Under the pieces are notes generated by a model that had not been told where the DNA came from, ran no database searches, and saw nothing but the letters and a program-made list of their open reading frames with translations. Positions 1,987-27,575 of a stretch of DNA of 64,000 nt are shown piece by piece. The DNA is taken from contig MHAY01000064.1 of the NCBI GenBank assembly GCA_001804705.1, positions 35,921-99,920 of the forward strand. The letters are read 5' to 3'. Positions within the stretch are counted from its first letter, which is position 1; the number at the start of each line of letters is the position of its first letter. The translations under genes were made by a program, and so were the position numbers. The stretch comes from Ignavibacteria bacterium RIFOXYC2_FULL_35_21 (lineage in GTDB: Bacteria > Bacteroidota > Ignavibacteria > Kapaibacteriales > UBA2268).

Positions 1987-3267
1987 TTGATAATGAAAAA
2001 AATATTAATCCTGTTTCTACCTTTCGTATTTGTGATTTGGACAGAACAGTGTTCTGTCCCTACATATTCTCAATTAACAAATAATAATTATGTTAAAACA
2101 GGATTAGATGTTCTAATCGAGAAAAACTTTGAGCCTTTAAAAGGAAAAAAAATTGCATTTCTTACGAACTTTGCAGGTAGAACAAGAGATGGTAAATCAT
2201 CTGTCGAAGTTTTCCAAAACACAAATGTATGTCAACTTATAAAAATATTCACTCCCGAACACGGTTTCTATACGACCGTACCGGCTGGCGAACATGTCTC
2301 TGATGACAAAATTGGAAATACTTCTGTTGTCTCTCTTTATGGTTCAAAACGTAAACCTTCGGTAAGCGACTTGTCTGATTGCGATGCTGTTGTAATTGAT
2401 ATTCAGGATATAGGTATAAGGTCTTATACGTACATTAGCTCAGTTTATAAAATGCTCGAAGCCTGTGCAGAAAACAACAAGCAGGTATTCATTCTAGACC
2501 GTCCGAATCCACTCGGTGGATTGATTGTTGATGGAAATGTACTTGAAAAAGGTAAAGAATCATTTATTGGAATTATACCCGTTACATATATACATGGCTG
2601 TACAATCGGCGAACTGACCAATATGCTCAATGAAGAAGGCTGGCTCTCACAGGATTCAACCGTACAACCTAAAAAATGTAATCTGACAATAATAAAAACG
2701 GAAAACTGGAAAAGATGGATGCAATGGGAGGACACCGGACTTCGATGGTTTCCTACTTCTCCCCACATTCAATCACCCGATGCTGTTCGTGGTGCTGCCG
2801 TGCTTGGTATCTGGGGTGAACTCTCATTATTTAGTATCGGCATAGGAACTACTCTACCCTTCCAATATTGCGGAGCCCCGGATTTCAAATCATTGGAAAT
2901 TGCTAATGAAATTAACAGTCAAAATCTTTATGGAGTAAATCTTTATCCAACAAAATACCGCCCATTTTATGGAATGTATAATGGTAAAGATTGCGAAGGC
3001 CTTTTACTGAAATTTACACCAAATAATCTTTTCATGCCTTACAGATTCGGTATAAAATTAGCTTTAGCAATTCGCAAATATCATCCGAATATTTTTAAGA
3101 AGAGCTTTTCAAGTCAGGCACAGTCTATGTTCATTAAAGCAACAGGAACCGATGAATTATTAAGAGCATTTATGGAAAATAAAAGTGATGATGAAATAAT
3201 TTCTATTTCACAGAATGGATTGGATAATTTTATCTCTCTAAGGAAAAAATATTTGTTGTATGAATAG
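1987..3267 (+). CDS. DUF1343 / NamZ-like exo-beta-N-acetylmuramidase family protein
   Basis: FTPEHGFYTTVPAGEHV, SLYGSKRKPS, VVIDIQDIGIRSYTYIS and LDRPNPLGG are hallmark DUF1343 motifs; N-terminal signal peptide interrupted by a palindromic repeat. Confidence 0.9.
   Translation: MIMKKILILFLPFVFVIWTEQCSVPTYSQLTNNNYVKTGLDVLIEKNFEPLKGKKIAFLTNFAGRTRDGKSSVEVFQNTNVCQLIKIFTPEHGFYTTVPAGEHVSDDKIGNTSVVSLYGSKRKPSVSDLSDCDAVVIDIQDIGIRSYTYISSVYKMLEACAENNKQVFILDRPNPLGGLIVDGNVLEKGKESFIGIIPVTYIHGCTIGELTNMLNEEGWLSQDSTVQPKKCNLTIIKTENWKRWMQWEDTGLRWFPTSPHIQSPDAVRGAAVLGIWGELSLFSIGIGTTLPFQYCGAPDFKSLEIANEINSQNLYGVNLYPTKYRPFYGMYNGKDCEGLLLKFTPNNLFMPYRFGIKLALAIRKYHPNIFKKSFSSQAQSMFIKATGTDELLRAFMENKSDDEIISISQNGLDNFISLRKKYLLYE
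2039..2063. repeat. GTAGGGACA-type palindrome inside the signal-peptide region of the DUF1343 gene
   Basis: GGACAGAAC-agt-GTTCTGTCCCTAC. Confidence 0.85.
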
Positions 3268-4278
3268 CTTCCCTGCTTTTTCTATTATGATTTTTTTTGC
3301 ATCTGAAAAAGTTACATTCGATAGTCTTGCGCCTGCGGCGTGGAAATGCCCTCCGCCACCCAGCTCTACAGCAAGCTCACGAACATTGATATCCCCCTTG
3401 GACCTGAAAGAAATTCTTACTTCCGGGTCATTCGGACGTTCCGTGATTAGTACACCTGCCTGTACTCCTTTTATGGTAACAGTATGTTCGACAATACCTT
3501 CAATATCAGAATCCAAGCCTCCGGTTTTTTTAAAAATTTCTTTTGTGAGAGTCATAACAACAAGTTTCCCATCATAAAATAGTTCCGAGCTTGCAAATGC
3601 TTCTCCCTGCAAAAGTGCTGCCCGGTATGGAATTATATTATATACTTCCTCATAAATTTTAACAGGGTCTGCACCATATTTAATAAGTTCTGCAATAATC
3701 AGGTGTGTTTCTCTTGTTGTTTGAGGAAACCTGAAACTGCCTGTGTCAGTCATAATAGCGGTATATAGTGCAGAGGCTATTTCCTCAGTGATTTTCAATT
3801 GCTCATCGCATTTCAGGATTTTCCAAATTAACTCTCCTGTTGATGCAGAAGCAGAATCAATATGATAAAAATCCGCATCAAAACTTGGTTCTATGTGATG
3901 GTCAATTACAATTTTCAATGCATTAGATTGCAAAACAACATTCTCCATTGCCTTAATTCTTGGGCTGTTATTAAGGTCAAGAACAAAGACTGCATCTGAT
4001 TTCATTATATATTCATTGTCATTGTCAGTGTAAACATTGACATTCTCAATACCAGCCAAAAACATAAGATTATAAGGTGTTTCACTGCAGTTTATGATTC
4101 TCGTCTCGATGCCTTTTTGTTGACAATAAAAGAAGAAAGCGAGTTCTGAACCGATAGCATCCCCATCAGGGTTGACATGTGTTGTTATTGTTATTTTTTT
4201 TGTATTAATAAGAATTTTGTGTATTTCATCTACTGTCGAATTCTTTATTTTTTCATTTATCATATTATTCATTTTCAA
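3238..4278 (-). CDS. DHH/DHHA1 phosphoesterase (NrnA-like bifunctional oligoribonuclease/PAP phosphatase)
   Basis: THVNPDGDAIGSELA, VIDHHIEPSF, ALYTAIMTDTGSFRF and GGGGHFHAAGA motifs. Confidence 0.9.
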   Translation of the reverse strand: MKMNNMINEKIKNSTVDEIHKILINTKKITITTHVNPDGDAIGSELAFFFYCQQKGIETRIINCSETPYNLMFLAGIENVNVYTDNDNEYIMKSDAVFVLDLNNSPRIKAMENVVLQSNALKIVIDHHIEPSFDADFYHIDSASASTGELIWKILKCDEQLKITEEIASALYTAIMTDTGSFRFPQTTRETHLIIAELIKYGADPVKIYEEVYNIIPYRAALLQGEAFASSELFYDGKLVVMTLTKEIFKKTGGLDSDIEGIVEHTVTIKGVQAGVLITERPNDPEVRISFRSKGDINVRELAVELGGGGHFHAAGARLSNVTFSDAKKIIIEKAGKLFIQQIFFP

Positions 4279-4558
4279 TTAATACTTGATTTTACTCATA
4301 AATATTTATTTCTTAGAGGAACAATTTATAATGTTCAATTTTGCAATTTCCAAAAAGCCAAAAAGTAATTTAATTAATTGAATATTTGTTCATTAAAAAT
4401 TCAATGAAAATTGCAAATTGTAAATTGTAAATTCTTTTCCAATAAAAATACAACTTTGATATATAACTGAATTAATATCAATGCTCCAAAATTAACATTT
4501 TATTTGTAAATTACAGGTTGTATATATGATTAATGTTTAAGAAATCTCAATATTATTT

Positions 4559-5281
4559 TTGAAAAAGTATCTTCCATATATTTACATTTTCCTTGCATTT
4601 ACAGCAGGATTATTTATAATTTTCTGGCTTGTGGACTCCGTACTGATGCCGCTTCTCGTTCATAACACAGAAACTGTTCAGGTGCCAAACGTAATCGGGA
4701 AATCTTATGATGATGCCCAGACTTTATTATCGGGAAAAAATTTAAAATTCATTAAGTCAGGTGAACAATACAGCGACAATGTAATCCCCAATACAGTTAT
4801 TAATCAAATACCAAAGTCAGGCACTGAAGTCAAAGTCGGAAGAAGTATTTACCTCATTATCAGCAAAGGAAGAGAGACTATTGAAGTACCGTACCTTATC
4901 GGAAAATCTCTTCGCGAAGCAAGAGTAACACTTATTCAAAATGGCTTGGCACTTGGTAACGTTGTTTACGTTGCTTCGGATTCTATCGGATTCGATACTG
5001 TGATATCACAGAGCATAGGCAATGACAGGAAAATTCCTGCGGGTAGTCCTATTAATATTATAGTCAGTAAGGGTTCTGAAAATTTCGTAAAAGTTCCTAA
5101 CCTTGTAGGCTTGTCCGTAAGCGAAGCCCAATCATTGCTCACTGAATCAGGTTTGGCAATTGGTAATATTTTCCTTGGAAAAAGCGAGACATATATGGCA
5201 GGCACTGTGATTGACCATTCACCTGCCGCAGGAGAACTTGTTAAACAAAATTCCCCGATAAATTTGACAATCGCAAAATAA
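4559..5281 (+). CDS. Stand-alone PASTA-domain membrane protein
   Basis: N-terminal TM helix and three PASTA repeats (VPNVIGKSYDDAQTLL, VPYLIGKSLREARVTL, VPNLVGLSVSEAQSLL); TTG start. Confidence 0.88.
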   Translation: MKKYLPYIYIFLAFTAGLFIIFWLVDSVLMPLLVHNTETVQVPNVIGKSYDDAQTLLSGKNLKFIKSGEQYSDNVIPNTVINQIPKSGTEVKVGRSIYLIISKGRETIEVPYLIGKSLREARVTLIQNGLALGNVVYVASDSIGFDTVISQSIGNDRKIPAGSPINIIVSKGSENFVKVPNLVGLSVSEAQSLLTESGLAIGNIFLGKSETYMAGTVIDHSPAAGELVKQNSPINLTIAK

Positions 5282-5304
5282 TTCAGAATTTATAGAGGTT
5301 ATTT

Positions 5305-5847
5305 ATGAAATATTTAAAATCAATTATTATCGTTTTCATTTTTCTTTTTTCTGCAACAATTCTATGCTTTGCACAGGACAGTAAAATGATGGCCAGTGCC
5401 TATGTCAGCTATAATATGCCAATGGGCACTACTGCTGATAATTACAAAAGCAGTGTGGGATTCCAGGCACAATTTGAATATTTATTAACTGAAGACATTG
5501 GTTTAGATATAACTGCAGGATATATACCGTGGAATTTTGAAAATGAGGTTCCTGACCAAACTTTCACTATTATTCCAACTCTTATTGGTGGAAGATACTA
5601 TTTCATGGCAAGAGGGATGTCGTCCTATGTAGGTGTTGATTTGGGCTTGTATCATACTACTTTCAAAACAGTTTCTGAAAAAAGACCCGAATCCAAATTT
5701 GGTTATTCAATTCTCGGAGGAGTCTTGTTTCCAATGAGCGATAATTTGTATGTAAATAGTAATATAAGTTATACAAGTATCAGTACAGCAGGATTTACAT
5801 TCACATATATTGCTCTTCATGCTGGTCTATCGTTTACATTTTACTAA
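5305..5847 (+). CDS. Outer-membrane beta-barrel protein
   Basis: Signal peptide and alternating beta strands ending in an aromatic (HAGLSFTFY). Confidence 0.6.
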   Translation: MKYLKSIIIVFIFLFSATILCFAQDSKMMASAYVSYNMPMGTTADNYKSSVGFQAQFEYLLTEDIGLDITAGYIPWNFENEVPDQTFTIIPTLIGGRYYFMARGMSSYVGVDLGLYHTTFKTVSEKRPESKFGYSILGGVLFPMSDNLYVNSNISYTSISTAGFTFTYIALHAGLSFTFY

Positions 5848-5921
5848 TGATATGTGATTAAATAATAAAATTAAACCAAAATTGATATAATTATATCAAA
5901 TAGAAAAAATACGAGGTTAAT

Positions 5922-7835
5922 ATGTTCAGAATTTTTACTGTTGTGTTTTTAATTATTTGTTATTACTTTTCAATTGCAGAATACAGGGAAGTTCAAATTC
6001 CTACACGTGTCTCTGATACTGAAAAAAAATCCCTCGCTGCAGATATATATGTAATTGATTCAACAGTTCCAAAACCAACTATATTAATTCAAACTCCCTA
6101 TAATAAAAATGCATATAGGACACTGCAATCACTACCTCAGGAAGGAGGCACACAACTGCCATTCGATACAATTAACTATAATTATGTCGTTCTTGACTGG
6201 CGTGGATTCTGGGCTAACAATGACAAAGACATTACGGGTAAGGACAGAGGTGAAGACGGTTATGATGTAGTTGAATGGATTGCCCAACAACCCTGGTCAG
6301 ATGAAAAAATTGGCACATGGGGAGGCTCTGCACTTGGTTACATACAATTTCTTACAGCAAGGCTTCATCCGCCTCATCTTGTTTGTGCTGTTCCGCTGAT
6401 AAAAGATTTTCTAATGAAATATGAGGATTATTATTATGGAGGTGTATATAGAAAAGAGCACTGCGAACAATTGCAAAGGCTCGGTTTCCTGCCAACATCT
6501 CTAATACTATCACATTACAAAGAAGATTTTTATTGGAGCTATATAGAGCAGAGTTCCGATTGTTCATCTGAAATTGAAATTCCAATGCTTCTGATTAGCG
6601 GATGGTTCGACCACTACCCTGCTTTTTGCATTCGCGCATTTCATAATTTAAAGGATTCGAGTAATCCGAATGTAAAAGACAGGCATAAATTAATAATGGG
6701 CCCCTGGCTCCATTCAAGCATTGGACAACCAGAACAGGGAGATTTGATTTTTCTTGAGGCAAAGAACATACCTAACCAGGCATCTGTTAAATTTTTCGAT
6801 TATTATCTAAGAAATATAAATAACGGCTGGGAAAACGAACCTGTAATCAAATATTTCGAAATGGGTTCCAATCAATGGAAAACAGCAGATAATTGGTATA
6901 ATGTTGCCGATGCTTACGACACATTGTATTTCAACGATAATCATTTATTGTCCGAAATACCTTCAATGCTTGACATCGTTTCGGTTGATTCAGTAGAGTA
7001 CAATCCCAAAGACCCTTCACCAACCTACGGTGGTTCCAGATTCAATCCTTTTGACCCGAAAACTCCAATGGGTCCCCTTGACCAGAGAGATAAGGTTGAG
7101 AGTAAGCCAGATGCCCTGGTTTATACTACTGAACCATTGAATCAAAATGTAATTCTTAACGGAAGTGTTGTTGCTGAACTTCTCGTTTCAACAGACAAAG
7201 AAGATACTGACTTTGGAATTAGGTTATGTGATGTTTATCCTGATGGCAGGTCAATGATTTTAACGCAAGGTATCAGAAGAATGAGATTCAGAAATTCTTA
7301 TTCTAATGAAGAATTAATGACTCCTGGAGAAATATATCCCGTTAAAATTGAGTTACATGATTTATCAATTAATTTTCTTGCAGGCCATTCAATAAGAGTA
7401 ATCGTCACAAATTCGAATTACCCAATGTTTGATATTAATTTGAATAATGGTGATTCTCTATATGTACCCGGCGATACTCTGATTGCGAAAACCTATCTTC
7501 ATCATTGGGGAAATTATAAATCAAAAGTGATTTTACCCGTAACAAAAGCAACAGGCGTAGAGGATGATTTAAATGATGAAATTTCATTAAAGATTTTTCC
7601 TAATCCTACTTCTGGTAAAATTGAAATAAGTTATTCGATTGATAAGCCCGGAACAATTAGTATGGAATTATTTAATTTAATTGGAGAAAAAATTTCATCC
7701 AGCAACAAACAAGTATCAGAAGCCGGTAATTATTCTGAAAACTTATCTCTTGAAGGATTTCCTGCAGGTATCTATTTACTTAAAGTAGGTATAAAACAAT
7801 CATCAATATTAAAGAAAATAATATTAACCCATTAA
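5922..7835 (+). CDS. CocE/NonD family hydrolase (X-Pro dipeptidyl-peptidase-like) with C-terminal T9SS-type sorting domain
   Basis: VVLDWRGFWAN, GTWGGSALGYIQF, LLISGWFDHY and MGPWLHSS motifs; C-terminal LKIFPNPTSGKIEISYSI...GIYLLKVG. Confidence 0.88.
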   Translation: MFRIFTVVFLIICYYFSIAEYREVQIPTRVSDTEKKSLAADIYVIDSTVPKPTILIQTPYNKNAYRTLQSLPQEGGTQLPFDTINYNYVVLDWRGFWANNDKDITGKDRGEDGYDVVEWIAQQPWSDEKIGTWGGSALGYIQFLTARLHPPHLVCAVPLIKDFLMKYEDYYYGGVYRKEHCEQLQRLGFLPTSLILSHYKEDFYWSYIEQSSDCSSEIEIPMLLISGWFDHYPAFCIRAFHNLKDSSNPNVKDRHKLIMGPWLHSSIGQPEQGDLIFLEAKNIPNQASVKFFDYYLRNINNGWENEPVIKYFEMGSNQWKTADNWYNVADAYDTLYFNDNHLLSEIPSMLDIVSVDSVEYNPKDPSPTYGGSRFNPFDPKTPMGPLDQRDKVESKPDALVYTTEPLNQNVILNGSVVAELLVSTDKEDTDFGIRLCDVYPDGRSMILTQGIRRMRFRNSYSNEELMTPGEIYPVKIELHDLSINFLAGHSIRVIVTNSNYPMFDINLNNGDSLYVPGDTLIAKTYLHHWGNYKSKVILPVTKATGVEDDLNDEISLKIFPNPTSGKIEISYSIDKPGTISMELFNLIGEKISSSNKQVSEAGNYSENLSLEGFPAGIYLLKVGIKQSSILKKIILTH

Positions 7836-7888
7836 AAACAGATTTTACATTCCATATGGTATTGCTAAAATATATACATTTTCTAATC

Positions 7889-7949
7889 ACTCTTCGATAA
7901 ACCCAGAGTGACAACACTGATTGTCATACTGAGCCTGTCGAAGAATGAC
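7889..7949. repeat. GTCATACTGAGCCTGTCGAAGAATGAC-type repeat
   Basis: tcactcttcgataaacccagagtga...gtcatactgagcctgtcgaagaatgac; related cttcgactaagctcagggtgaca at 55549-55571. Confidence 0.7.
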
Positions 7950-8091
7950 TTTAATATGATTAAACTTCATTTTGATTGGTCTGTATACCAAATTAGCAAT
8001 ATCTTCCTTATAACATTATTTTCTCTCCCTCGTTTTTCTTAATTTTAAAATTCGTTTTTTGTCAAATGATGTAAATCTTGAGGAATATCTT

Positions 8092-10434: not shown

Positions 10435-10446
10435 TACAAGTAAAAG

Positions 10447-10475
10447 CCCCCTTTTTCAAAGGGGGATTCAGGGGG
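10447..10475 (-). repeat. CCCCCTTAATCCCCCTTTGAAAAAGGGGG-type repeat, intergenic; also terminator-like
   Basis: ccccctttttcaaagggggattcaggggg followed by a run of T, directly after the S9 peptidase. Confidence 0.85.
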
Positions 10476-10534
10476 TTTTTTTTTTGATACATCCTTCGAC
10501 ATGATGTTTATGACAAACTCATTTTATGTTAGAT

Positions 10535-10666
10535 GAATAGCCACTATTTTTAAATAGTGGGAATAAGTAAACAGCACTTTCGCCTGGATTTATCCCCTAA
10601 TAAAAATAATTGACTAAAGTCGTAATTATGTGATAAACCTCCACTATCTGAAGATAGTGGCTATTC
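10535..10666. mobile_element. MITE-like element, 132 bp, 13-bp perfect TIRs, hairpin at each end
   Basis: GAATAGCCACTAT (10535-10547) and ATAGTGGCTATTC (10654-10666) are exact reverse complements; end hairpins CCACTATTTttAAATAGTGG and CCACTATCTgaAGATAGTGG. Confidence 0.75.
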
Positions 10667-10696
10667 AAATAAAATTTAAAAAATATTAAAACAAAA

Positions 10697-10705
10697 GGAG
10701 GTGAT
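10697..10705 (+). promoter_or_regulatory. Canonical Shine-Dalgarno sequence for the MFS gene
   Basis: AGGAGGTGA a few nt before TTG 10708. Confidence 0.7.
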
Positions 10706-10707
10706 TT

Positions 10708-12057: not shown

Positions 12058-12219
12058 AGTAGGATTTTTAGGATTTGAAGATTATAGGATTCTGTAATTG
12101 ATATTCTAATAGAAAAAATAATTATACATTGAATTAATAAAATTGCTATTTTTCTATTTACTCTGAAACACTTTTAGAGTAATAATTGACAATATGTATA
12201 ATGAGCTTTGAGGTTCAAA

Positions 12220-15200
12220 ATGAAAAAGGCAATTTATTTACTTGTTTCTATTATTATTTTATTTTCCTCTTTACACTCTGCACCTGTTATTTTCAAATAT
12301 GATAACGGAATACCCGCCGGAATGTACTCGAATGCTAATACGTTGGGCTGGGATGAAACTGTAATGCTGAAACCTCCGGGGCCATGTAAAATAAATAAAG
12401 TTCAATTATACCTTAGCGGTACTGTTGCGGCTCCCGACACAATCTGGGTTGTAGGCGACCCTGCCGAAGGAGCATATCCACCTTCATCTTATTGCTGGTA
12501 TATAAACAAACTTGCCGACGGTAAGATAATAAATTATACCGGAACACCCGGCTGGTATGAAATTGATATATCGGCAGACAATATCAGAGCAGATGGAATT
12601 TGCAGTGTCGTAATCCAGCACAGAAATAAACAAAACGGGCCTTATTTCACCTTTGATAATCAATCTCAGACACAGGAAATACATTCACTGCTGGTTGATC
12701 TACGGCCTAACCCGGATTTCTTAGGAATCAGAGGTACAATCTTTGCCCGGTCTCAGGGTAATTTCATGGTACGATTCGAAATCGAATACGATTTTCCTGA
12801 CGGAGAAACCACTGCACAAGCTCCCCCGCCAACATTAGTTGATGTAACAAAAGAAGCGGGATTAGTTGATGGAAATGGCAGTCCAATCAAGAGTGCAATG
12901 GTGAGCGTTGTAGGATTTAATAATAATGAATTTGAAGATTTAGCTGTCGGCTCATATTATTTTTCAAATAATGGTGATGCAACTTTTGAAAATAAATCAT
13001 CCCAGGCAAATCTTCAAGCTGGACAAACAAGCTGGGCTGATATTGATAATGATGGAAACATTGATTATTTCGCATTAAACGGTGGCTTGAACGATAAAAT
13101 TTTATTTGGAAATGGTAATTTATCTTTTGTAGATGAAACCGACTCAATTATAAAACTAAATCAGCCGACTGTTACGCCAATGTTCTTCGACTACAATCAT
13201 GATGGTTTACTTGACCTATACATTGCTTATGGAAGAGCAGGCGACCCTGAAGTATATTACCCCGACCAACTATTCAAAAACATTGGAAACAAGAAATTTG
13301 AAAACGTTACGAATACGGCAGGAATCTCTGCAGGCGAGCCGGCGCCATACTATGACTGCTGGGGAGCAAGCATCTGCGATTATAACAATGACAATTGGCC
13401 CGATGCTTTTGTAGCAACTTACCGCCTCGCTCCTGATATGTTATTCAGAAATGCAAAGAACGGAATGTTTGATGAAGTTGGGGGCGCAACAGGTGCAAGA
13501 GGAATACCCACATATTATACAAATGCATTTGGACATGGCATGGGCTCTGACTGGGGAGACTTTAACAACGACGGCTATGATGACTTATGTGTCGGCAATC
13601 TTGGTCATCCGGATGAAAGAGCATTAAACTCAAATCCTTCGCTATTATTTAAAAATGATGGCCCGCCTAACTGGACTTTCACGGATATGCACTCCGAAAT
13701 GGGCTTGAAATTCTTCGAAATGAATGCAGGAACTGTTTGGGCTGACCTTAATCTCGACGGCTATCTCGACCTTGTTCATGCTCAATACTCTTATGACGCT
13801 AAAGGAGCCAGAAACGATAGGTTCACAAGGTTTTATCTGAATCAGGGACCTTCAAAAAATTTCAAATTGAAAGATGTAACATGGGAAACCGGTGCATACA
13901 ATCATGGTGCATGGGCACCTGTCAGATTAGACTTTGATAATGATGGTGATATGGATATTATTGTTGCCAGTGGTCATGAAAACCTTAAATTATTCAGAAA
14001 TGATTTGCCTAACAAAGGTTACTGGATTGCATTCAGATTAAGTGGGAGTCCGGCAAACAATGTTCCTAATGAGGGATTCGGGAGTAATGTTACGGTTTAT
14101 TCAGGAGGACAAAAATTTTACCGAAGCCTCCCTGGTACGGTTATGAATGGAAGATGTTCTCAAAGTTCTAATGAATTGAATTTTGGAATAGGAAGTGTGA
14201 GTACGATTGACAGCGTTGTTATAAAATTTCCAAATGGACAAACAAATAAATTCACCGGACTTGCAATTAATACAAAATATAAAATTCCATATATGCAATC
14301 TCCGGTGAGAATGAAACTGACAGCACCAATGCTATTATCTCCTTTAAACTTTACAACTAAGATGGTGCCTGATGTAGCTTTTGATTGGTCTCAAGTCAGC
14401 GAAGGTACAAAATATGAGATACTCATTTCAAATAAAAAAGATTTTTCTGATACTGTATTGCATCAGAATGAATTAACCCAAACATCTTCAAATAGTAGCA
14501 CTTTCGAAATAAATAAAACTTACTTTTGGAAAACCAGAGCATTTTCAGATACGGATACCAGTAACTGGTCAAGTATATGGGAATTCACTGTCGGCACTCC
14601 AACACCATTAGCACCAAAATTGAAAAATCCACCTAACGATTCATTGAATATAAGTGCTAAACCGAAGTTTATTTGGAACACATCCGAATACTATGCTAAA
14701 TACCCAGGTATTACAATTTATGATTTGCAATATTCTACTGACCCAACCTGTTCAACTGATGTACAAAGTTTTTACGGACTGCTTGATACAACGTTTCTTG
14801 TTACCGAACATCTAATTCCCGATACAAAATACTATTGGCGAACACGTGGTATAAACGAAGGACAGCCAAGTCAATGGTCAGAAATTTGGAACTTCACGGT
14901 TATGGCTTTACCTTCCAAACCGTTTTTAACATCACCTGCAAACGGAGACACTGCTGTAAGTAAAAGACCATCTCTATCGTGGGAAGAAAGCACAAATGCA
15001 GACTACTATACACTCGAATTATCAAAATCGGAAGTCTTTAATCCCGATTCGATAAATTATCAAGCAACAGATATAACATCTACATCAAGAAAATTATTTA
15101 AATCCCTCGATGAAGGAACTATTTATTACTGGCACGTCAGAGCAGGAAATGACGGTGGCGAAAGCGAATGGTCTCAAACATATAATTTCAAAACAGAAGG

Positions 15201-15489
15201 CATACTTGGAATTGAGGAAGTGGATAATTCAGGTTTATTTGTAAAAACCTCTCCAAATCCATTTGACAAAGTAACAAATATAGAATTTTATTTGCCAGAA
15301 CCAGGATTCACAACTTTGAATATTTTCAATATTGAAGGAATAGAATTAGAAACAATATTATCCGAAAAATTAGATGCAGGAAATCATTTAGTAAAGTGGG
15401 ATGCAAAGCGACATCCAACCGGAATTTATTATTTTCAACTAATAATTGGAAATAAATCATACACCGGAAAATTGATTGTAATAAAATAA
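12220..15489 (+). CDS. Secreted FG-GAP/VCBS-repeat protein with ASPIC/UnbV domain, Fn3-like repeats and T9SS sorting domain
   Basis: DxDxDG calcium-binding repeats (DIDNDGNIDYF, DFNNDGYDDLCVGN, DFDNDGDMDIIVAS); ASPIC/UnbV-like segment; C-terminal TSPNPFDKVTNIEFYLPEPG...GIYYFQL. ORF opens at TTG 12208; ATG 12220 preferred. Confidence 0.88.
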   Translation: MKKAIYLLVSIIILFSSLHSAPVIFKYDNGIPAGMYSNANTLGWDETVMLKPPGPCKINKVQLYLSGTVAAPDTIWVVGDPAEGAYPPSSYCWYINKLADGKIINYTGTPGWYEIDISADNIRADGICSVVIQHRNKQNGPYFTFDNQSQTQEIHSLLVDLRPNPDFLGIRGTIFARSQGNFMVRFEIEYDFPDGETTAQAPPPTLVDVTKEAGLVDGNGSPIKSAMVSVVGFNNNEFEDLAVGSYYFSNNGDATFENKSSQANLQAGQTSWADIDNDGNIDYFALNGGLNDKILFGNGNLSFVDETDSIIKLNQPTVTPMFFDYNHDGLLDLYIAYGRAGDPEVYYPDQLFKNIGNKKFENVTNTAGISAGEPAPYYDCWGASICDYNNDNWPDAFVATYRLAPDMLFRNAKNGMFDEVGGATGARGIPTYYTNAFGHGMGSDWGDFNNDGYDDLCVGNLGHPDERALNSNPSLLFKNDGPPNWTFTDMHSEMGLKFFEMNAGTVWADLNLDGYLDLVHAQYSYDAKGARNDRFTRFYLNQGPSKNFKLKDVTWETGAYNHGAWAPVRLDFDNDGDMDIIVASGHENLKLFRNDLPNKGYWIAFRLSGSPANNVPNEGFGSNVTVYSGGQKFYRSLPGTVMNGRCSQSSNELNFGIGSVSTIDSVVIKFPNGQTNKFTGLAINTKYKIPYMQSPVRMKLTAPMLLSPLNFTTKMVPDVAFDWSQVSEGTKYEILISNKKDFSDTVLHQNELTQTSSNSSTFEINKTYFWKTRAFSDTDTSNWSSIWEFTVGTPTPLAPKLKNPPNDSLNISAKPKFIWNTSEYYAKYPGITIYDLQYSTDPTCSTDVQSFYGLLDTTFLVTEHLIPDTKYYWRTRGINEGQPSQWSEIWNFTVMALPSKPFLTSPANGDTAVSKRPSLSWEESTNADYYTLELSKSEVFNPDSINYQATDITSTSRKLFKSLDEGTIYYWHVRAGNDGGESEWSQTYNFKTEGILGIEEVDNSGLFVKTSPNPFDKVTNIEFYLPEPGFTTLNIFNIEGIELETILSEKLDAGNHLVKWDAKRHPTGIYYFQLIIGNKSYTGKLIVIK

Positions 15490-15494
15490 ATTAT

Positions 15495-15522
15495 GTAGGG
15501 ACAGAACATTGTTCTGTTCCTA
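15495..15522. repeat. GTAGGGACA-type palindrome, intergenic
   Basis: GTAGGGACAGAACATTGTTCTGTTCCTA. Confidence 0.85.
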
Positions 15523-15585
15523 TTATTGACAAATATTCGAAAAAAATAAAGCAAAAATTATTTTTCACACATAAAAGGTGAAAAA

Positions 15586-17628: not shown

Positions 17629-17831
17629 GGTCATATGGTTTCAATTCAGAATTCATAATTCTTTTTGAAAGTTTGAGACCTTTTTGCTTTTGATGTGTCT
17701 TTACATTATATTAATGACAAAAAAATATGAATAATCATAATAAAATAAAATGTTTTAGACAGAACACTGTTGGATATACAATTTTCAATTATAAATTTTC
17801 AATTTTCAATTTTCTGACCCTTCGTGATTTA

Positions 17832-19922
17832 TTGGGCAGAAAATTTTCTGCCCCTACAATTTTAATATTTCTTTTCTTAACTACTTTCATACTACATTCA
17901 CAAGAAAAACCTTATTGGAAAAAAACAGAAGGTATTTATGGTGGTATTATTACTTGCATGACGGGAAATGATAATCAAATATTCATAGGAACATTGGGTT
18001 CCGGTGTTTACACATCAACAAATCCTGGTGAAAAATGGGAAGCGATTAATAATGGAATATCCAACCTCGATATAAGAGCAATCATTCTTACAAAAAGCAA
18101 TACTTTACTTGCAGGAACTTATGGCGGAGGTATTTTCAGGTCAACAGATTATGGTATTACATGGAATAAAGCTAATGTTGATTTAAAAAGCATGGACTTC
18201 AGAACATTTGCTCTTGATTCGGATGGCACAATTTGGGCTGGGTCATGTACTGCCGGAATATTTCTTTCGACTAATGATGGCATTTTCTGGGAATATGGGG
18301 GTGTGAATGATTATGATGTTTGGGCAATTGCAGTAACTAAAACAGGTAATATCTTCGCAGGCTCCTCCAAAAATGGAATTTTTTATACAAATGATAAAGG
18401 ATATAACTGGAAAAATTCTTACGCAGGTTTAACGACCGATGATGTTAGAACTATGGCTATTGTATCGGACTCACTACTTTTTGCAGGGACTAATAAGGGT
18501 GTTTTTCTTTCCACTAATGAGGGCGGCTCATGGGAAGAATTTAATTATGGTTTAACAAATTTAGATGTTTGGTCTTTGTTACCGATGAATGACGGACAAC
18601 TAATTGCAGGTACAAAAGGTGACGGTACATTTTTTATAAAACCATTGCCAGAGAATACCTGGCAGCAAAAAATTGAAAATCTGGAAGAATTATGGATTCG
18701 ATGTTTGATGCTTTCGGAAGATAATATCCTGTTTACCGGGACAGATGGTGGAGCCGGATTATTTAAAACAAATACTTCTTCAATCTTATGGGAAAAAGCA
18801 AACACCGGAATAAATAATCTGGATGTTACTTCATTTGAAATTGATAAAAATGGGAAATTAATGTCCGGTACATATTCGGATGGCATTTATATTTTTGATG
18901 AAGATTCTAACACATGGACTCGTTCTGGGGAAGGTATAACAAATAAGTATATTTTATCACTTGCTATTGACTCTTCTAATAATTATTATGTCGGTACTTA
19001 TAGTAGTGGTGTATTTTACTCGACTGATAATGGTGCTACTTTTACTCAAATTAATGAAGGGTTAGTGGATAAGCAAATCTTCTCAATGACAATAAATGCA
19101 AAGAATAAAGTAATTGCAGGAACAGGTGGAAGTGGTATTTTCAGGTATGAACCTGACTCATCAAAATGGATAAAAATTAATAAGGGCTTGAAATCTTATG
19201 TTATTTATTCATTAGTTAAGGCTCCTAATGGATTTTTATTTGCAGGTACACCAGGTGCTGGAATATTCAAATCTGAGGATGACGGTGATAATTGGATTCA
19301 AGTTAATGAAGGATTGGATGCTCCATTTATAAATGTTTTATGTGTAACAAAAAACGGAGATATTATTACAGGAACCCAGGATAAAGGTGTTTTTTTATCA
19401 AAAGATAATGGTGCAAATTGGTCAAATATCGGATTAGAAGGTACTGTATTATTATCCATTATATATTCACAGGATGAATTTGTTTATGTTGCAACTTCAG
19501 ATAGTGGGATATATCGCACCAAATTAGAGACAATTAGATGGGAACTAGTAAATGATGGTTTAATTATTAATTCTGTCCAGGCAATAATAAGTGATAAAAT
19601 AGGTAGACTTTATGCAGCAGTTCACAAAAATGGCGTATATATGTACGACCCTGCAACAGGAGTTGAAGAGTATTCTAAAGTAATGGAAAATGAAATTAAT
19701 ATTTCACCTAACCCTGCAAATGATATTATAAAAATAAGAATAGATATTCCATCAGGAATTGGAGAATCGTTTTCAATTTATAACTCAATCGGACACCTTT
19801 TAAATAAAATTGATATTAATAACACATCAGAATATTATGAATTGCAAGTCAACGATTTAACATCCGGGATTTACTTCATAAAATATAATTGTAAAAATTA
19901 TCCTTTTATCATATTCAGATAA
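17832..19922 (+). CDS. Secreted beta-propeller protein with T9SS sorting domain, paralog of preceding gene
   Basis: Repeats such as FAGTNKGVFLSTNEGGSWEEF; C-terminal ISPNPANDIIKIRIDIP. ORF opens at 17727; the in-frame TTG at 17832 gives a compact signal peptide (M)GRKFSAPTILIFLFLTTFILHSQ. Confidence 0.83.
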   Translation: MGRKFSAPTILIFLFLTTFILHSQEKPYWKKTEGIYGGIITCMTGNDNQIFIGTLGSGVYTSTNPGEKWEAINNGISNLDIRAIILTKSNTLLAGTYGGGIFRSTDYGITWNKANVDLKSMDFRTFALDSDGTIWAGSCTAGIFLSTNDGIFWEYGGVNDYDVWAIAVTKTGNIFAGSSKNGIFYTNDKGYNWKNSYAGLTTDDVRTMAIVSDSLLFAGTNKGVFLSTNEGGSWEEFNYGLTNLDVWSLLPMNDGQLIAGTKGDGTFFIKPLPENTWQQKIENLEELWIRCLMLSEDNILFTGTDGGAGLFKTNTSSILWEKANTGINNLDVTSFEIDKNGKLMSGTYSDGIYIFDEDSNTWTRSGEGITNKYILSLAIDSSNNYYVGTYSSGVFYSTDNGATFTQINEGLVDKQIFSMTINAKNKVIAGTGGSGIFRYEPDSSKWIKINKGLKSYVIYSLVKAPNGFLFAGTPGAGIFKSEDDGDNWIQVNEGLDAPFINVLCVTKNGDIITGTQDKGVFLSKDNGANWSNIGLEGTVLLSIIYSQDEFVYVATSDSGIYRTKLETIRWELVNDGLIINSVQAIISDKIGRLYAAVHKNGVYMYDPATGVEEYSKVMENEINISPNPANDIIKIRIDIPSGIGESFSIYNSIGHLLNKIDINNTSEYYELQVNDLTSGIYFIKYNCKNYPFIIFR
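17834..17857. repeat. GTAGGGACA-type palindrome at the N-terminus of the second propeller gene
   Basis: GGGCAGAAAATTTTCTGCCC perfect 20-bp palindrome followed by CTAC. Confidence 0.8.
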
Positions 19923-19990
19923 ATTAATTATAAAATAAGATTGAACTTATCCGTTATTACGAAAATTATTTTGAAATTTTACAAATATTA

Positions 19991-22303: not shown

Positions 22304-22406
22304 TATTTTAAAATTAATCATGAACTAATAACTATCAATAATAGAATAAAGAATTCGTCCAATTCATACGAATTTGTAAAATTCTAAACAATTTCAAGGA
22401 ATAATA

Positions 22407-24311
22407 ATGCTTGATAATGAAACATTAGACATTACATCCGATGAAGTAAAAGCAAAAAATGAATTCGAATACAAAGCAGAGATGAAGCAATTGCTTCATT
22501 TAATAGTTCATTCACTTTACACGCATCCTGAGGTTTTTCTTAGAGAACTTATATCAAATTCATCTGATGCACTGAACAAAATACGATTCAGGCGATTGAC
22601 AGATAGTAACATACTCGACCCTGATTCTGAACTTAAAATCAATATAGATATTGATGAAAAAGAAAATACTTTCTCTATTACCGATACCGGTATAGGTATG
22701 ACTAAGGAAGACCTTATCGGCAGAATCGGAACAATAGCAAGTTCGGGAACTCTCGAGTTTTTTAAGAAAATGGAGGAAGAAAATAAGAGTCTCGATGCAA
22801 ATCTTATAGGGCAATTCGGAGTCGGCTTCTACTCAGTTTTTATGGTTACCGATGAGATTAATATCGAAACTACTTATGCAGTTCCAAATTCCAAAACCTA
22901 TCTTTGGAAATCTTTTGGAGAAGATAAATTTACTGTAGAAGAAATTGAAAATAAACCGAGAGGAACAAAAATATCTTTTAAATTAAAAGATGAATATAAA
23001 GAATTTGCTCAACCCTGGAAAGTAAAAAGTATATTAAAGAAATATTCTAACTTCGTTGATTTCCCTGTTTATGTTAATGCTGAAAAAGTTAATATTGTTT
23101 CTGCACTTTGGCACAGGAAAAAAGAAGATATAAAAGATGAAGAACTAAATGATTTTTATACTTTTATATCGAATGATTCTACCCCGCCAATGGCTCATCT
23201 TCTGTTAAATATCGAAGGCATTCTAAATTTTAGGGCTTTGATTTTTATTCCAGAAACTGCCCCACCATCTCTTTTTCAGGATGCTCTTGAAAAGTCGCTT
23301 CAACTCTATTCAAACAGGATATTCATTCAGGATAATTGCAAAGAATTAATTCCCGATTACCTGAAATTCGTTAAAGGTGTCGTTGATACCGAAGAATTAC
23401 CCCTTAATGTTTCCAGGGAGGTTACACAGTCAAGCCCGGTTATCACAAAGATAAAAAATGTGTTGGTATCAAAAATACTTGCACAACTTGAAGACTGGGC
23501 TGAAAACGCTCAAGCAAAATATGAAAAATTCTATAACAATTTCGGTTCTCTTTTAAAAACAGGCATCAATGCTGATTTTACTCATAAAGTTCAATTAATC
23601 GAACTGCTAAGATATGAAACTTCATTGAGGCCAAAAGGTGAAAAGGTATCACTTAAAGAATATGTTCAAAGAATGGCTGAAGGACAGAAAGAAATATATT
23701 ACATAATGGGTGACCATAGAGATTTGATAGAGATGAATCCAAATCTTGAGTATTTCAGAAAAAATGAGCTGGAGGTCTTGTATCTTACAGACCCCGTTGA
23801 TGTTTTCACTATCCCTTATATATTTGAATATGACAAAAAGCAACTTAAATCCATTGAGAAAGCCGATATTGATATTAAAAAAGTAAATAAAGAAGAAAAA
23901 TCCAGTGATACAAGTAATAAAGGCTTGCTCGATTATTTTAAAGAAGTTCTCGGAGATAAAGTGGAGGATGTCATAGAATCAAACAGGCTGGTTGACTCTG
24001 CCGTTACCTTAGTTGTTGGTAAGCAGGGTTTTGACCCGCAGGTCGAAAAAATGATGCAATACATAGATAAAAACTTCACTCATTCTAAAAGAATCCTGGA
24101 GGTTAATACTTCACATAATATTATTAGAAATATCAATTCTTTATTTATTGCAAACTCAAATCCTGAACTTGTTAATAATGCTATATTGCAGCTTTACGAA
24201 GGTGCCTTGCTTTTAGAAGGGAAATTGCCTTCGCCAAACGAGTTTTTAAAGAGAATGAATGAATTTATCGAATTATCAACAAAATCAAAAAATGTAGGGG
24301 AAGTTTCATAA
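22407..24311 (+). CDS. htpG: Molecular chaperone HtpG (Hsp90)
   Basis: ELISNSSDALNKIR, TDTGIGMTKEDLIGRIGTIASSGT and GQFGVGFYSVFMV motifs. Confidence 0.97.
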   Translation: MLDNETLDITSDEVKAKNEFEYKAEMKQLLHLIVHSLYTHPEVFLRELISNSSDALNKIRFRRLTDSNILDPDSELKINIDIDEKENTFSITDTGIGMTKEDLIGRIGTIASSGTLEFFKKMEEENKSLDANLIGQFGVGFYSVFMVTDEINIETTYAVPNSKTYLWKSFGEDKFTVEEIENKPRGTKISFKLKDEYKEFAQPWKVKSILKKYSNFVDFPVYVNAEKVNIVSALWHRKKEDIKDEELNDFYTFISNDSTPPMAHLLLNIEGILNFRALIFIPETAPPSLFQDALEKSLQLYSNRIFIQDNCKELIPDYLKFVKGVVDTEELPLNVSREVTQSSPVITKIKNVLVSKILAQLEDWAENAQAKYEKFYNNFGSLLKTGINADFTHKVQLIELLRYETSLRPKGEKVSLKEYVQRMAEGQKEIYYIMGDHRDLIEMNPNLEYFRKNELEVLYLTDPVDVFTIPYIFEYDKKQLKSIEKADIDIKKVNKEEKSSDTSNKGLLDYFKEVLGDKVEDVIESNRLVDSAVTLVVGKQGFDPQVEKMMQYIDKNFTHSKRILEVNTSHNIIRNINSLFIANSNPELVNNAILQLYEGALLLEGKLPSPNEFLKRMNEFIELSTKSKNVGEVS

Positions 24312-24334
24312 CCTTCCTAATGCTTATGAAAACG

Positions 24335-24360
24335 TAGGTACAGAACATCATTCTGTCCTT
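24335..24360. repeat. GTAGGGACA-type palindrome, degenerate
   Basis: GTAGGTACAGAACATCATTCTGTCCT; a half copy (CATTGTTCTGTCCCTAA) lies at 24411-24427. Confidence 0.7.
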
Positions 24361-24551
24361 TATTGAATTTATATAACAAAATTTTGTCTCTAATTAGCAA
24401 TAAATTAGTCATTGTTCTGTCCCTAAGTCGAAATTAATAAAAAAAGTTCTTGATGTAAGCTATTGAATTGTTGTATTTTTGTATAGTGTATAATTAACAA
24501 TTTGAAAATAATAAGATTTATTTTTCTGAATTTCTTACAAACACCAAATTA

Positions 24552-24576
24552 AGGGCAGAAAATATTCTACCTGTAC
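24552..24576. repeat. GTAGGGACA-type palindrome, degenerate (GGGCAGAAAATATT subtype)
   Basis: agggcagaaaatattctacctgtac. Confidence 0.6.
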
Positions 24577-24629
24577 ATGAGCAATAATTGTAAACGCATC
24601 TTCATAAATTTTAGTAGGATAGATTAAAT

Positions 24630-25673
24630 ATGAAATTATCAGAATTCAAGTACAATTTTCCCAAGAACCTAATAGCAAAATTCCCTGCCGAGCCGAGAGA
24701 CTCAGCAAAATTGATGGTGCTCAACAGAAGTAACGGGAAAATTGAAGAAAGAGTATTCGAAGACATTATAGATTATCTTAATAAGGGCGACTGTCTTGTT
24801 GTGAATGATACAAAGGTCTTCCCTGCCCGTTTGTTTGGTAAAAAAGAAAAGACAAATGCGAAAATAGAAGTAATGTTATTGAGAGAACTGAAATCAGAGG
24901 AACGAATTTGGGACGTACTTGTCGAGCCTGCAAGAAAAGTCAGAATCGGTAATAAAATTTATTTCGACAATAATAAATTCAACTGCGAAGTCATAGATAA
25001 CACAACATCACGAGGCAGAACCGTCAGGTTCAGCTTTGATGGCAACCTGTTTAAAATAATTGAAAAAATAGGAGAAATGCCGCTTCCCGAATATATAAAG
25101 CGAGAGCCGACAGAACATGACAAAAAAACTTATCAGTGCGTTTTTGCTAATAAAAATCACCTTGCATCAATTCAACCACCAACAGCGGGATTGCATTTTA
25201 CCGAAGAACTCCTGAAAGAAATAGAAGCTAAAGGTATTAGAATAGCCAAAGTATTACTAAACATTGGACAAGGTTCATTCGAAAGGATTGAAGTCGAAGA
25301 CCTGACTAAACATAGAATGTATTCGGAATTCTTTACGATTTCGAGGGAATCGGCAGAAATTATCAATAAATCGTTGAAAGCGAAAAAGCAAGTAATGGCA
25401 GTTGGTTCGAGCGTTGTAAGGGCTCTTGAATCGTCAGTGCTGACATCAGGCCAGGTAAAGCCGAATAAAGGCTGGACGGATAAATTTATTTATCCGCCAT
25501 TCGATTTTAAAATCGTTGGTAAATTCCTTACCAATTTCCAGCCGCCTGCATCACCGTCTTTACTTATGACTGCGACTTTTGCAGGCAAAGAAGAAATGTA
25601 TAAAGCATATAAAAAGGCAATGAAAAGCAACTTCCGCTTTTTTGCTTATGGAGACGCATTTTTAATGATTTAA
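24630..25673 (+). CDS. queA: S-adenosylmethionine:tRNA ribosyltransferase-isomerase
   Basis: PRDSAKLMVLNR, NDTKVFPARLFGKK, PPTAGLHFTEELL and NFQPPASPSLLMTATFAG. Confidence 0.97.
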   Translation: MKLSEFKYNFPKNLIAKFPAEPRDSAKLMVLNRSNGKIEERVFEDIIDYLNKGDCLVVNDTKVFPARLFGKKEKTNAKIEVMLLRELKSEERIWDVLVEPARKVRIGNKIYFDNNKFNCEVIDNTTSRGRTVRFSFDGNLFKIIEKIGEMPLPEYIKREPTEHDKKTYQCVFANKNHLASIQPPTAGLHFTEELLKEIEAKGIRIAKVLLNIGQGSFERIEVEDLTKHRMYSEFFTISRESAEIINKSLKAKKQVMAVGSSVVRALESSVLTSGQVKPNKGWTDKFIYPPFDFKIVGKFLTNFQPPASPSLLMTATFAGKEEMYKAYKKAMKSNFRFFAYGDAFLMI

Positions 25674-25702
25674 AAATAGTGTGCAATTTATTAATTTTGT
25701 AA

Positions 25703-25730
25703 GTAGGGACACAAGATTTTGTGTCCCTAC
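25703..25730. repeat. GTAGGGACACAA palindrome upstream of mutA
   Basis: GTAGGGACACAA-gatt-TTGTGTCCCTAC, perfect 12-bp stem. Confidence 0.9.
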
Positions 25731-25760
25731 TTTTCATTTTTGCCTTTTTTGTTAATAATG

Positions 25761-25790
25761 TTGTCTGAACTGTGATTTGTATGATTTTGA
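25761..25790 (+). repeat. TTGTCTGAACTGTGATTTG repeat, copy upstream of mutA
   Basis: ttgtctgaactgtgatttgtatgattttga. Confidence 0.7.
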
Positions 25791-25823
25791 TAATTTAAAT
25801 TATTTGTTAAATGAATTAAAAAG

Positions 25824-27575
25824 ATGAAAGACAAATTAAAAAATGTAGGAATACAAAATGAAAGTATGGATACAAAATCTTGTGTCCCTACATTTCAGGT
25901 GCACCTACTTAAGGATTTTCAAAGAACCAATTATGGAGAGTGGGAGAAATTATCTAATTCGATATTAAATAATAAATTAGATGATTATGTTAATAAATTA
26001 TATAAAAATATTATAACTAAACCCATTTATTTTAAAGATGATATTAGTGATTTACATATTCAAATTAATTCTCTTCCAGGATTATATCATAATTTAAAAA
26101 GAAATAAATTAATTCATTCAAATCAATGGGAAATAGCTCAAGAAATTCCTTTACCATTACCTGAAGAATTTAATAAATCATTATCAGAAAATCTTATAAA
26201 TGGTCAAAATGCTATTAGTATAGCACTTGATGATGCTTCGGCTTTCGGATTTAATCCCGAAGATTCAATCAAAGTGAAGGTTGGTCGAAATGGTATTTCA
26301 ATATTTTTCTCGGATGATTTTGAAAAGACATTGAAAAATATTGACGCTGAACAGTATCCGATTTATATCAAGACATCAACAAACCTTACTTCCATAGCAT
26401 CTGTTTTCTTATCATATCTTTTAAATAATAAAATAAATATAAAAAAATTATCCGGTGGATTCCATTATGACCCATTGTCCGTACTAGCACAAAAACATGA
26501 ATTTCCATACGATTATGAATTGCTCTTTGATGAAATTGTTTCTTTGATTACTTGGCTTCATTCAAAAAAATGTCCATTTTCAGTAATAACAATTAATGGA
26601 AATTTATTCAACGAATCTGGTGGAAATGCAGTTCAGGAAATTGCCTTCTCAATGAGCGAAACTGTCTTATATTTAAAAGAGTTAATAAGTAGAGGGATTG
26701 AAATTAATGAAGCGGCAAAAAGAATTAGACTTTCTTATTCAATTGGACCTAACTTTTTCGTTGAAATATCAAAACTTAGGGCAGCGAGGTTGCTTTGGTC
26801 AAAAATAATTAAACATTTTGGGGGAAATGAAGATTCACAAAAAGTATTTATTCATGCTGAAACCTGCAAATGGAACAAAACAAAACATGACCCTTATGTT
26901 AATATCCTCAGAAATACAGGTGAAGCACTTTCTGCTATACTTGGTGGATGCGATAGCCTCAATCTACAATACTTTGATAATGCCTTTGGTATTCCTAATG
27001 AGTTTTCAAGAAGAATAACACGCAACACTCAGCTTGTATTGATGGAAGAATGTGATTTGACAGGAATTACAGACATTCCGGGCGGTTCCTGGTATATTGA
27101 GAATCTGACCAACGAACTTGCTAAAAAGGCTTGGGAATTGTTCCAGGAAGTTGAAAAAAAGGGTGGATTTTATAAAGCTCTCGATAATGGTTTCATAAAA
27201 GAAGAAATAGAAAAAGTCAAGTATGAAAGGTTATTTAATTTCAATAAGAAGAAAGATGTTTTAATCGGTACAAATATATATCCAAACCCAAATGAAAAGC
27301 CTATAGAAGCAACAGAAATAGACTACAACGCAATTTTTAAGCAAATACATTCAACACTTAGGGTGCATATTGAAAAACGAGACAACATGAAGGTGTCTAA
27401 ATTGTTGGATGTGCTAAATGATACCGTCAATGATAATCCAATCAATTCCTTCGAATCGGCATTAAATGCCGTAAAAGCAGGAGCCACACTCGGTGAAATC
27501 AGTAAACCGTTTAATATTAAATTTAATGCAACGATTAAAAATCCAATAGAGAAGATGAAATTGTCTGAACTTTGA
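25824..27575 (+). CDS. mutA: Methylmalonyl-CoA mutase small (beta) subunit-like protein
   Basis: SLPGLYHNLKRN, SYSIGPNFFVEISKLRAARLLWSKI, LRNTGEALSAILGGCDSLN and IPGGSWYIENLTNELAKKAWELFQEVEKKGGF; no clear B12-binding C-terminal domain; N-terminus contains repeat-derived codons. Confidence 0.85.
   Translation: MKDKLKNVGIQNESMDTKSCVPTFQVHLLKDFQRTNYGEWEKLSNSILNNKLDDYVNKLYKNIITKPIYFKDDISDLHIQINSLPGLYHNLKRNKLIHSNQWEIAQEIPLPLPEEFNKSLSENLINGQNAISIALDDASAFGFNPEDSIKVKVGRNGISIFFSDDFEKTLKNIDAEQYPIYIKTSTNLTSIASVFLSYLLNNKINIKKLSGGFHYDPLSVLAQKHEFPYDYELLFDEIVSLITWLHSKKCPFSVITINGNLFNESGGNAVQEIAFSMSETVLYLKELISRGIEINEAAKRIRLSYSIGPNFFVEISKLRAARLLWSKIIKHFGGNEDSQKVFIHAETCKWNKTKHDPYVNILRNTGEALSAILGGCDSLNLQYFDNAFGIPNEFSRRITRNTQLVLMEECDLTGITDIPGGSWYIENLTNELAKKAWELFQEVEKKGGFYKALDNGFIKEEIEKVKYERLFNFNKKKDVLIGTNIYPNPNEKPIEATEIDYNAIFKQIHSTLRVHIEKRDNMKVSKLLDVLNDTVNDNPINSFESALNAVKAGATLGEISKPFNIKFNATIKNPIEKMKLSEL
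25864..25891. repeat. GTAGGGACACAA palindrome, inverted copy inside mutA N-terminal codons
   Basis: GTATGGATACAA-aatc-TTGTGTCCCTAC; 26/28 match to the reverse complement of 25703-25730. Confidence 0.88.

Follow-up and report, generated by a model that had tools for sequence, protein, structure and literature searches.

A hairpin repeat is read in frame in three genes of the window

The DNA examined here is a 64,000-nucleotide stretch of contig MHAY01000064.1 from Ignavibacteria bacterium RIFOXYC2_FULL_35_21 (the window, whose positions are used below), in which a short hairpin repeat resembling a repetitive extragenic palindrome (REP) is read in frame near the N termini of three forward-strand genes. 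The first gene (1993-3267) encodes a NamZ (DUF1343) exo-beta-N-acetylmuramidase (PF07075, E 1.5e-68; PF20732, E 3.3e-31), and the second (17727-19922) encodes the second propeller protein, which is of the BNR/Sortilin type with a type IX secretion system (T9SS) C-terminal tail (PF15902, PF02012, PF18962). The third (25824-27575) encodes a mutA-like methylmalonyl-CoA mutase subunit (PF01642, E 6e-138, residues 61-562). In all three, the repeat lies on the reverse strand. The NamZ copy (2035-2063) has its GTAG at 2060-2063 and folds with -14.3 kcal/mol (z -3.5), the propeller copy (17830-17857; z -3.4) has a degenerate extra arm with 3 mismatches beside it (17810-17823, reverse strand), and the mutA copy (25864-25891; z -4.3) precedes the conserved domain; RNA folding of the three coding copies thus gave z from -3.4 to -4.3. 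Both the window search and the codon reading bore out the arm positions named in an earlier note on this DNA. The codons over the repeat are ATT TGG ACA GAA CAG TGT TCT GTC CCT ACA in NamZ (IWTEQCSVPT), TTA TTG GGC AGA AAA TTT TCT GCC CCT ACA in the propeller gene (LLGRKFSAPT) and AGT ATG GAT ACA AAA TCT TGT GTC CCT ACA in mutA (SMDTKSCVPT). The phase at the right end is identical, with the tag on the non-coding strand (CTAC).

Architecture and copy number of the repeat

We surveyed 17 contigs (1.17 Mb) of the host genome plus targeted stretches, and counted arms over all 105 contigs of the genome (4.15 Mb). Units were identified by GTAGNGRCAG-type ends (a 10-nt tag) and stem pairing, a rule that replaced an initial palindrome rule with an 8-nt tag, which was dropped as too loose because its controls reached up to 24. 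A second search used the core alone (GRCAG...CTGYC) and required no tag. The unit is about 29 bp long (range 26-32 nt), as expected of small, high-copy GTAG-tagged REPs, and consists of GTAG at one end followed by a stem, GGRCAGAANA / TNTTCTGYCC, whose arms are separated by a loop of 0-1 nt. Among units found by their core, 37 of 44 had at least one end with a perfect GTAG, and in 28 of these 37 the second end lacked it. The nine units with two-ended tags all came from stem families other than CAGAAAA/CAGAACA. The GAGACAGGTCT family has GTAG at both ends and so departs from the one-ended tag of GTAG REPs, whereas in the CAGAACA/CAGAAAA family, to which the NamZ, propeller and mutA copies belong, the end opposite GTAG is arbitrary, unrelated sequence. 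The repeat of these three genes is an asymmetric, GTAG-tagged, REP-like hairpin. The symmetric palindrome consensus of the earlier note was not sustained, since in CAGAA-type copies the perfect GTAG is almost invariably confined to one end. Stem variants (AACA, AAAA, AATA, GGTT, ATTC and GTCT) have matching changes in both arms, which judged by the stems fits REP sub-families.

The copy numbers bear on whether short inverted repeats arose by accident in an AT-rich genome and happened to be read in the same phase. Just three window genes are involved, and because none of the three frames contains a stop in these copies, agreement in phase is expected by chance with a probability of 1/9. Against this, the GTAGGGACAGAACA arm (<=3 mismatches) has 17 matches in the window versus 2.9 expected, a number reached in 0 of 100 shuffles, and the 1.17 Mb contain 63 GTAG-tagged units versus 1-3 with scrambled tags. 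Across the whole genome, arms with <=2 mismatches on both strands numbered 115, compared with 21 for the reversed pattern, and strict two-armed patterns gave 9 palindromes versus 0 in the control. Orthologues with empty sites (NamZ, propeller, Tgt and a metallo-beta-lactamase (MBL)-fold hydrolase, described below) also argue against accident. Chance is refuted for the repeat itself, and we assign this explanation a negligible probability overall.

Empty sites and translation of the three coding copies

We compared each gene with its orthologues in the same-genus genomes G001, G002 and G003. The NamZ start (ATG 1993) matches the position of the G001 start, and the repeat falls in the signal-peptide region, between the hydrophobic core and the YSQ site. 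The orthologues of G001-G003 have no insert there (N terminus of this genome, MKKILILFLPFVFVIWTEQCSVPTYSQLTNNNYVKTGLDVLIEK; of G001, MKILNILILSFLIFVSAKSQATNFSQVKTGLDVLIEK; the G003 leader ends ...VIPIYSQFTSYTSVKTGLDV). After the repeat, the next in-frame start is TTG 2371, which already lies within the conserved domain, so that on the reading of the sequence translation must cross the NamZ repeat. The propeller repeat sits at the edge of, and directly before, the hydrophobic stretch of the signal peptide. The N terminus (...KFSIFNFLTLRDLLGRKFSAPTILIFLFLTTFILHSQEKPYW) is comparable with those of G001 (...QFSINNFLFL-LLIFILFSTSVLLSQQKPYW) and G002, and both of these orthologues have an empty site. 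Signal peptides of the NamZ and propeller leaders in several genomes end in ...S|Q, like the Q-rule described for signal peptidase I substrates in Bacteroidetes (PMC5837995). If cleavage occurs before Q, as we infer from the ..SQ sites, the NamZ and propeller repeat peptides would be absent from the mature protein.

For mutA, one candidate start is the ATG within the repeat (25866). Since G001 and G003 have similar residues upstream of the repeat (this genome, MKDKLKNVGIQNESMDTKSCVPTFQVHLLKDFQRTNY; G001, MKEKIKNVGTQNFESLLGDFQKTNY; G003, MKKDIKKGESQNSVTLLNEFQETNY), the start is most likely ATG 25824 instead. Inspection of the sequence also revealed a left-arm remnant of an older REP, GTAGGAATACAAAAT, at 25845-25859 on the forward strand. 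At this site G001 has GTTGGGACACAAAATTTTGAATCC, which is read VGTQNFES and resembles a decayed full REP. This segment of mutA was probably REP-derived before the split from G001, with further sequence added in this genome.

These comparisons also bear on the choice between translated repeats and untranslated leader hairpins, in which the true starts would lie downstream and the in-frame reading would be an annotation artefact. A caution of this kind has been published for N-terminal REPs in other species (PMC3733652), and starts do exist in suitable places: ATG 25866 inside and GTG 25899 after the mutA repeat, and TTG 17832 inside the propeller repeat. However, using the next NamZ start would cost the protein its signal peptide, the upstream residues and starts of all three genes are comparable in sister species, and many additional copies lie deep within conserved proteins. 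We therefore consider leader hairpins very unlikely, and the propeller and mutA repeats, judged from these alignments, are very probably translated.

Coding copies are depleted yet favor one phase and gene starts

Of the 84 units in the unbiased contigs, just 16 were internal to genes (our own codon-score calls of open reading frames (ORFs)) though ~80% of the DNA is coding. The repeat is therefore predominantly extragenic, like GTAG REPs. Intergenic units comprised 45 between genes of the same direction, 14 between convergent and 6 between divergent genes, versus 133, 39 and 40 kb of the respective intergenic DNA, and the share in divergent spaces looks low. For copies at gene edges, the tag end supplied the stop codon of the gene in 8 of 9.

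We then analyzed phase in this genome together with targeted stretches of its relatives (G001-G003, G009, G010, G013, G014, G020 and G022), which yielded 205 distinct units, 41 of them wholly internal. Of the latter, 32 were in the phase of the three window genes and 5 and 4 in the others; with paralogues and orthologues collapsed, the favored phase held 24 of 31. Of the three end-anchored frames, the favored one is open most often, in 91.5% of copies versus 70% and 39% for the other two, so stop codons account for much of the pattern. Among copies with more than one open frame, 19 of 26 were still in phase versus 12.0 expected (P 0.0046; all P values are indicative only, as survey definitions shifted in the course of the analysis). 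The excess gave P 0.015 without the contig of the window and P 0.077 outside this genome alone. By family, the phase was kept in 12 of 13 copies for GAGACAGGTCT, 8 of 8 for GGTT/ATT (mostly forced by stops) and 7 of 12 for CAGAA, whose exceptions include CRDRTMFCQI, INGQNKFCPY, TLGQNNVLSLP and IWAENILPLH.

The claim that the phase is always the same thus holds for all three window genes and for a majority genome-wide, as a preference rather than a rule, and least so in their own family. Likewise, the TAG of the consensus does limit the usable frames where the tag falls on the coding strand but not in the three window copies. The predicted location at protein N termini was upheld: of the 18 internal copies in this genome, 6 lie within 40 codons of the gene start versus 9.5% expected (P 0.005). 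The genome-wide scan that had been proposed, run here over these contigs and stretches, yielded the phase majority and the N-terminal excess together with an under-representation of coding copies.

Other host genes and retained inserts

Further internal copies occur in a glycoside hydrolase family 3 enzyme, a T9SS esterase (two in its sorting domain), Tgt, a GAF-GGDEF protein (two), and LOG-type, penicillin amidase, CHASE2, MBL-fold hydrolase, DnaJ-domain, heparinase-type and Y1 transposase proteins. Tgt of this genome is longer by a net 9 residues (...HSNIVGEGLETSPTYSLGYL...) at a site that is a short turn in 16 other orthologues of the alignment. The Tgt enzymes of the whole lineage (here L163, C48; 5316-6467) are without the CxCxxC zinc ligands of solved homologues, independently of the REP; we rejected REP insertion as the cause of this zinc-cysteine loss, which is lineage-wide.

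The MBL-fold hydrolase insert was found in four of four genus members (VGVNSGTAPT, VGVNSESAPS, VGAGSESAPT and VGAGYEPVPT), and 16 outgroup orthologues are 7 residues shorter at this site, so the insertion predates diversification of the genus. In two independent species pairs, its codons differ by 6 non-synonymous and 0 synonymous changes, whereas the remainder of the gene has 88 and 126. Judging from these codons, the insert is kept yet unconstrained in sequence. Different REP inserts also occupy the hairpin turns of T9SS C-terminal sorting domains in three genera (L143 of C32 in this genome; L233-L241 of G022; L247-L248 of G013), the G022 and G013 copies in the same domain turn as here. This turn is a recurrent, tolerant insertion site.

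We considered whether the repeat peptide is truly exapted, that is, selected for better secretion, folding or regulation, with the common phase reflecting a favored peptide. The excess of one phase over what open frames predict (P 0.005), the MBL insert retained in four species, the T9SS turns hit in three genera by different repeats, and the two window inserts in signal-peptide regions are all consistent with this. On the other hand, the MBL codons alter mostly non-synonymously, coding copies are depleted, the host genes are functionally unrelated, and the G022 T9SS copies, which lie in mutually similar paralogous domains, were partly inherited through duplication. Because tolerance accounts for the data without any benefit, exaptation is unneeded, and we regard it as unlikely. 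The recurrent exaptation into coding sequence suggested by the earlier note is thereby reduced to recurrent in-frame insertion in many unrelated conserved genes. A related idea, that REPs are a portable coding module whose tag and stem are shaped for one open frame encoding a soluble, turn-forming V-E/G-T/A-G-x-x-P-V/A-S/P-T peptide, so that they could repeatedly enter surface turns, signal peptides and T9SS sorting domains, either harmlessly or to advantage, appears to us similarly doubtful.

Probable in-frame insertion and tolerance of a mobile REP

Taken together, we consider it likely that a mobile GTAG-type REP inserted in frame and was tolerated, with stop codons and protein tolerance filtering the survivors. 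A Y1/HUH transposase acting in trans would probably transpose the hairpins and offer copies genome-wide; the repeat itself has spread, with several variants of its stem, in this Kapabacteria-type genome and among its relatives. Selection would then purge copies that add a stop (the tag includes TAG), shift the frame or put a peptide into the protein core. Surviving copies would be in frame, mostly in the reading V-(E/G)-(T/A)-x-x-x-P-(V/A)-(S/P)-T, and would sit in surface turns or T9SS sorting domains, or else toward the N terminus in signal peptides and extensions. The NamZ, propeller and mutA copies would be such survivors, and a benefit to the host gene would be unnecessary.

Several points weigh against this account. 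A scan of 25 Y1_Tnp loci found repeats only at L036, inside the ORF and none flanking, and none at the other 24. A comparison of repeats and Y1 genes over 40 genomes gave no support for co-occurrence, as two relatives rich in repeats had no Y1_Tnp match and one with 14 matches had no repeat. The nearest genomes are too distant in sequence to mark insertion ends or target-site duplications. Lastly, stops alone do not explain the phase excess, and we tentatively attribute the part beyond open frames to peptide tolerance. A REP-associated tyrosine transposase (RAYT) as resident mobilizer was also considered and is unsupported by both the locus scan and the co-occurrence analysis.

Separately, two GTAGGGGCAGGTT hairpins lie in the L036 ORF (1034-1624, reverse strand) between the HUH motif and the C-terminal part of the Y1 transposase, where they are read as VGAGSQPAPD and NGAGCEPAPT.

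Other repeats in the window

Three further REPs were mapped in the window. One (15495-15523, forward strand) is intergenic and lies right after the gene of an FG-GAP/ASPIC protein (12208-15489). A second (52996-53024, reverse strand) has a tag that supplies the TAG stop of ORF 53021-54382 on the same strand. The third lies between queA and mutA (25703-25730, strand not assigned) and has a 14-bp perfect stem (-22.2 kcal/mol, z -7.0). Same-genus relatives instead have a GGCATAC...GTATGCC hairpin with a T-run after queA, and this REP may have replaced the queA terminator. After the HSP90 gene (24334-24426), two opposed single REP arms stand 65 bp apart, possibly a split or dimeric unit.

Different repeats were also seen. 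CCCCCTTAATCCCCCTTTnnnAAAGGGGG occurs at 57134-57183 and 59348-59397, in frame and in the same phase (IPLNPPLVKGE and IPLNPPLKKGE) inside a 1268-residue ORF (55724-59530), presumably the helicase of the earlier note. A long repeat with TATCCCGTAGGGATTATATA has two intergenic copies (473-546 and 1877-1950). The repeat-like peptides PFDYAQGD and CKPERSRR...FDSAQ in ORFs (G000:C64:32578-34956, reverse strand; L041) are suggestive, from their sequence, of another palindromic family with coding copies.

Comparison with known systems

For annotation, a VETGLRPVST or CSVPT peptide in unrelated proteins of this lineage should be read as repeat-derived; our literature search for VETGLRPVST found no paper.

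Rickettsia palindromic elements (Ogata 2000), as reviewed in PMC2229807, are the classical in-frame palindromes, 105-146 bp long and specific to Rickettsia. The repeat described here is likewise a mobile palindrome found in frame in many unrelated conserved genes, but at about 29 bp, or ~10 codons, it falls well short of that size. As in the RAYT/REPtron system (Nunvar 2010, PMC2817692), the genome has Y1_Tnp genes, one of them bearing two GTAGGGGCAGGTT hairpins. Unlike in REPtrons, these hairpins lie within the Y1 ORF rather than flanking it, and the other scanned loci have none.

The closest likeness is to GTAG REPs (Di Nocera et al. 2013, PMC3733652), for which intragenic and N-terminal copies and the use of TAG as a stop have already been published. 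Shared features are a 20-40 bp hairpin with GTAG at one end, sub-families with complementary stem changes, a mostly intergenic distribution, TAG serving as a stop, some in-frame copies and a share at N termini. In contrast to GTAG REPs, almost no copy here stands beside a transposase gene, a second family (GTAGAGACAGGTCT) is tagged at both ends, the host is a Kapabacteria-type Bacteroidota, and the phase preference is quantified. To published work this case adds a new lineage, sister species with empty sites, an insertion retained across a genus and phase statistics. With these, the question of whether such repeats are selfish DNA that is tolerated or a source of new protein sequence becomes testable in one clade, and here the answer leans to tolerance.

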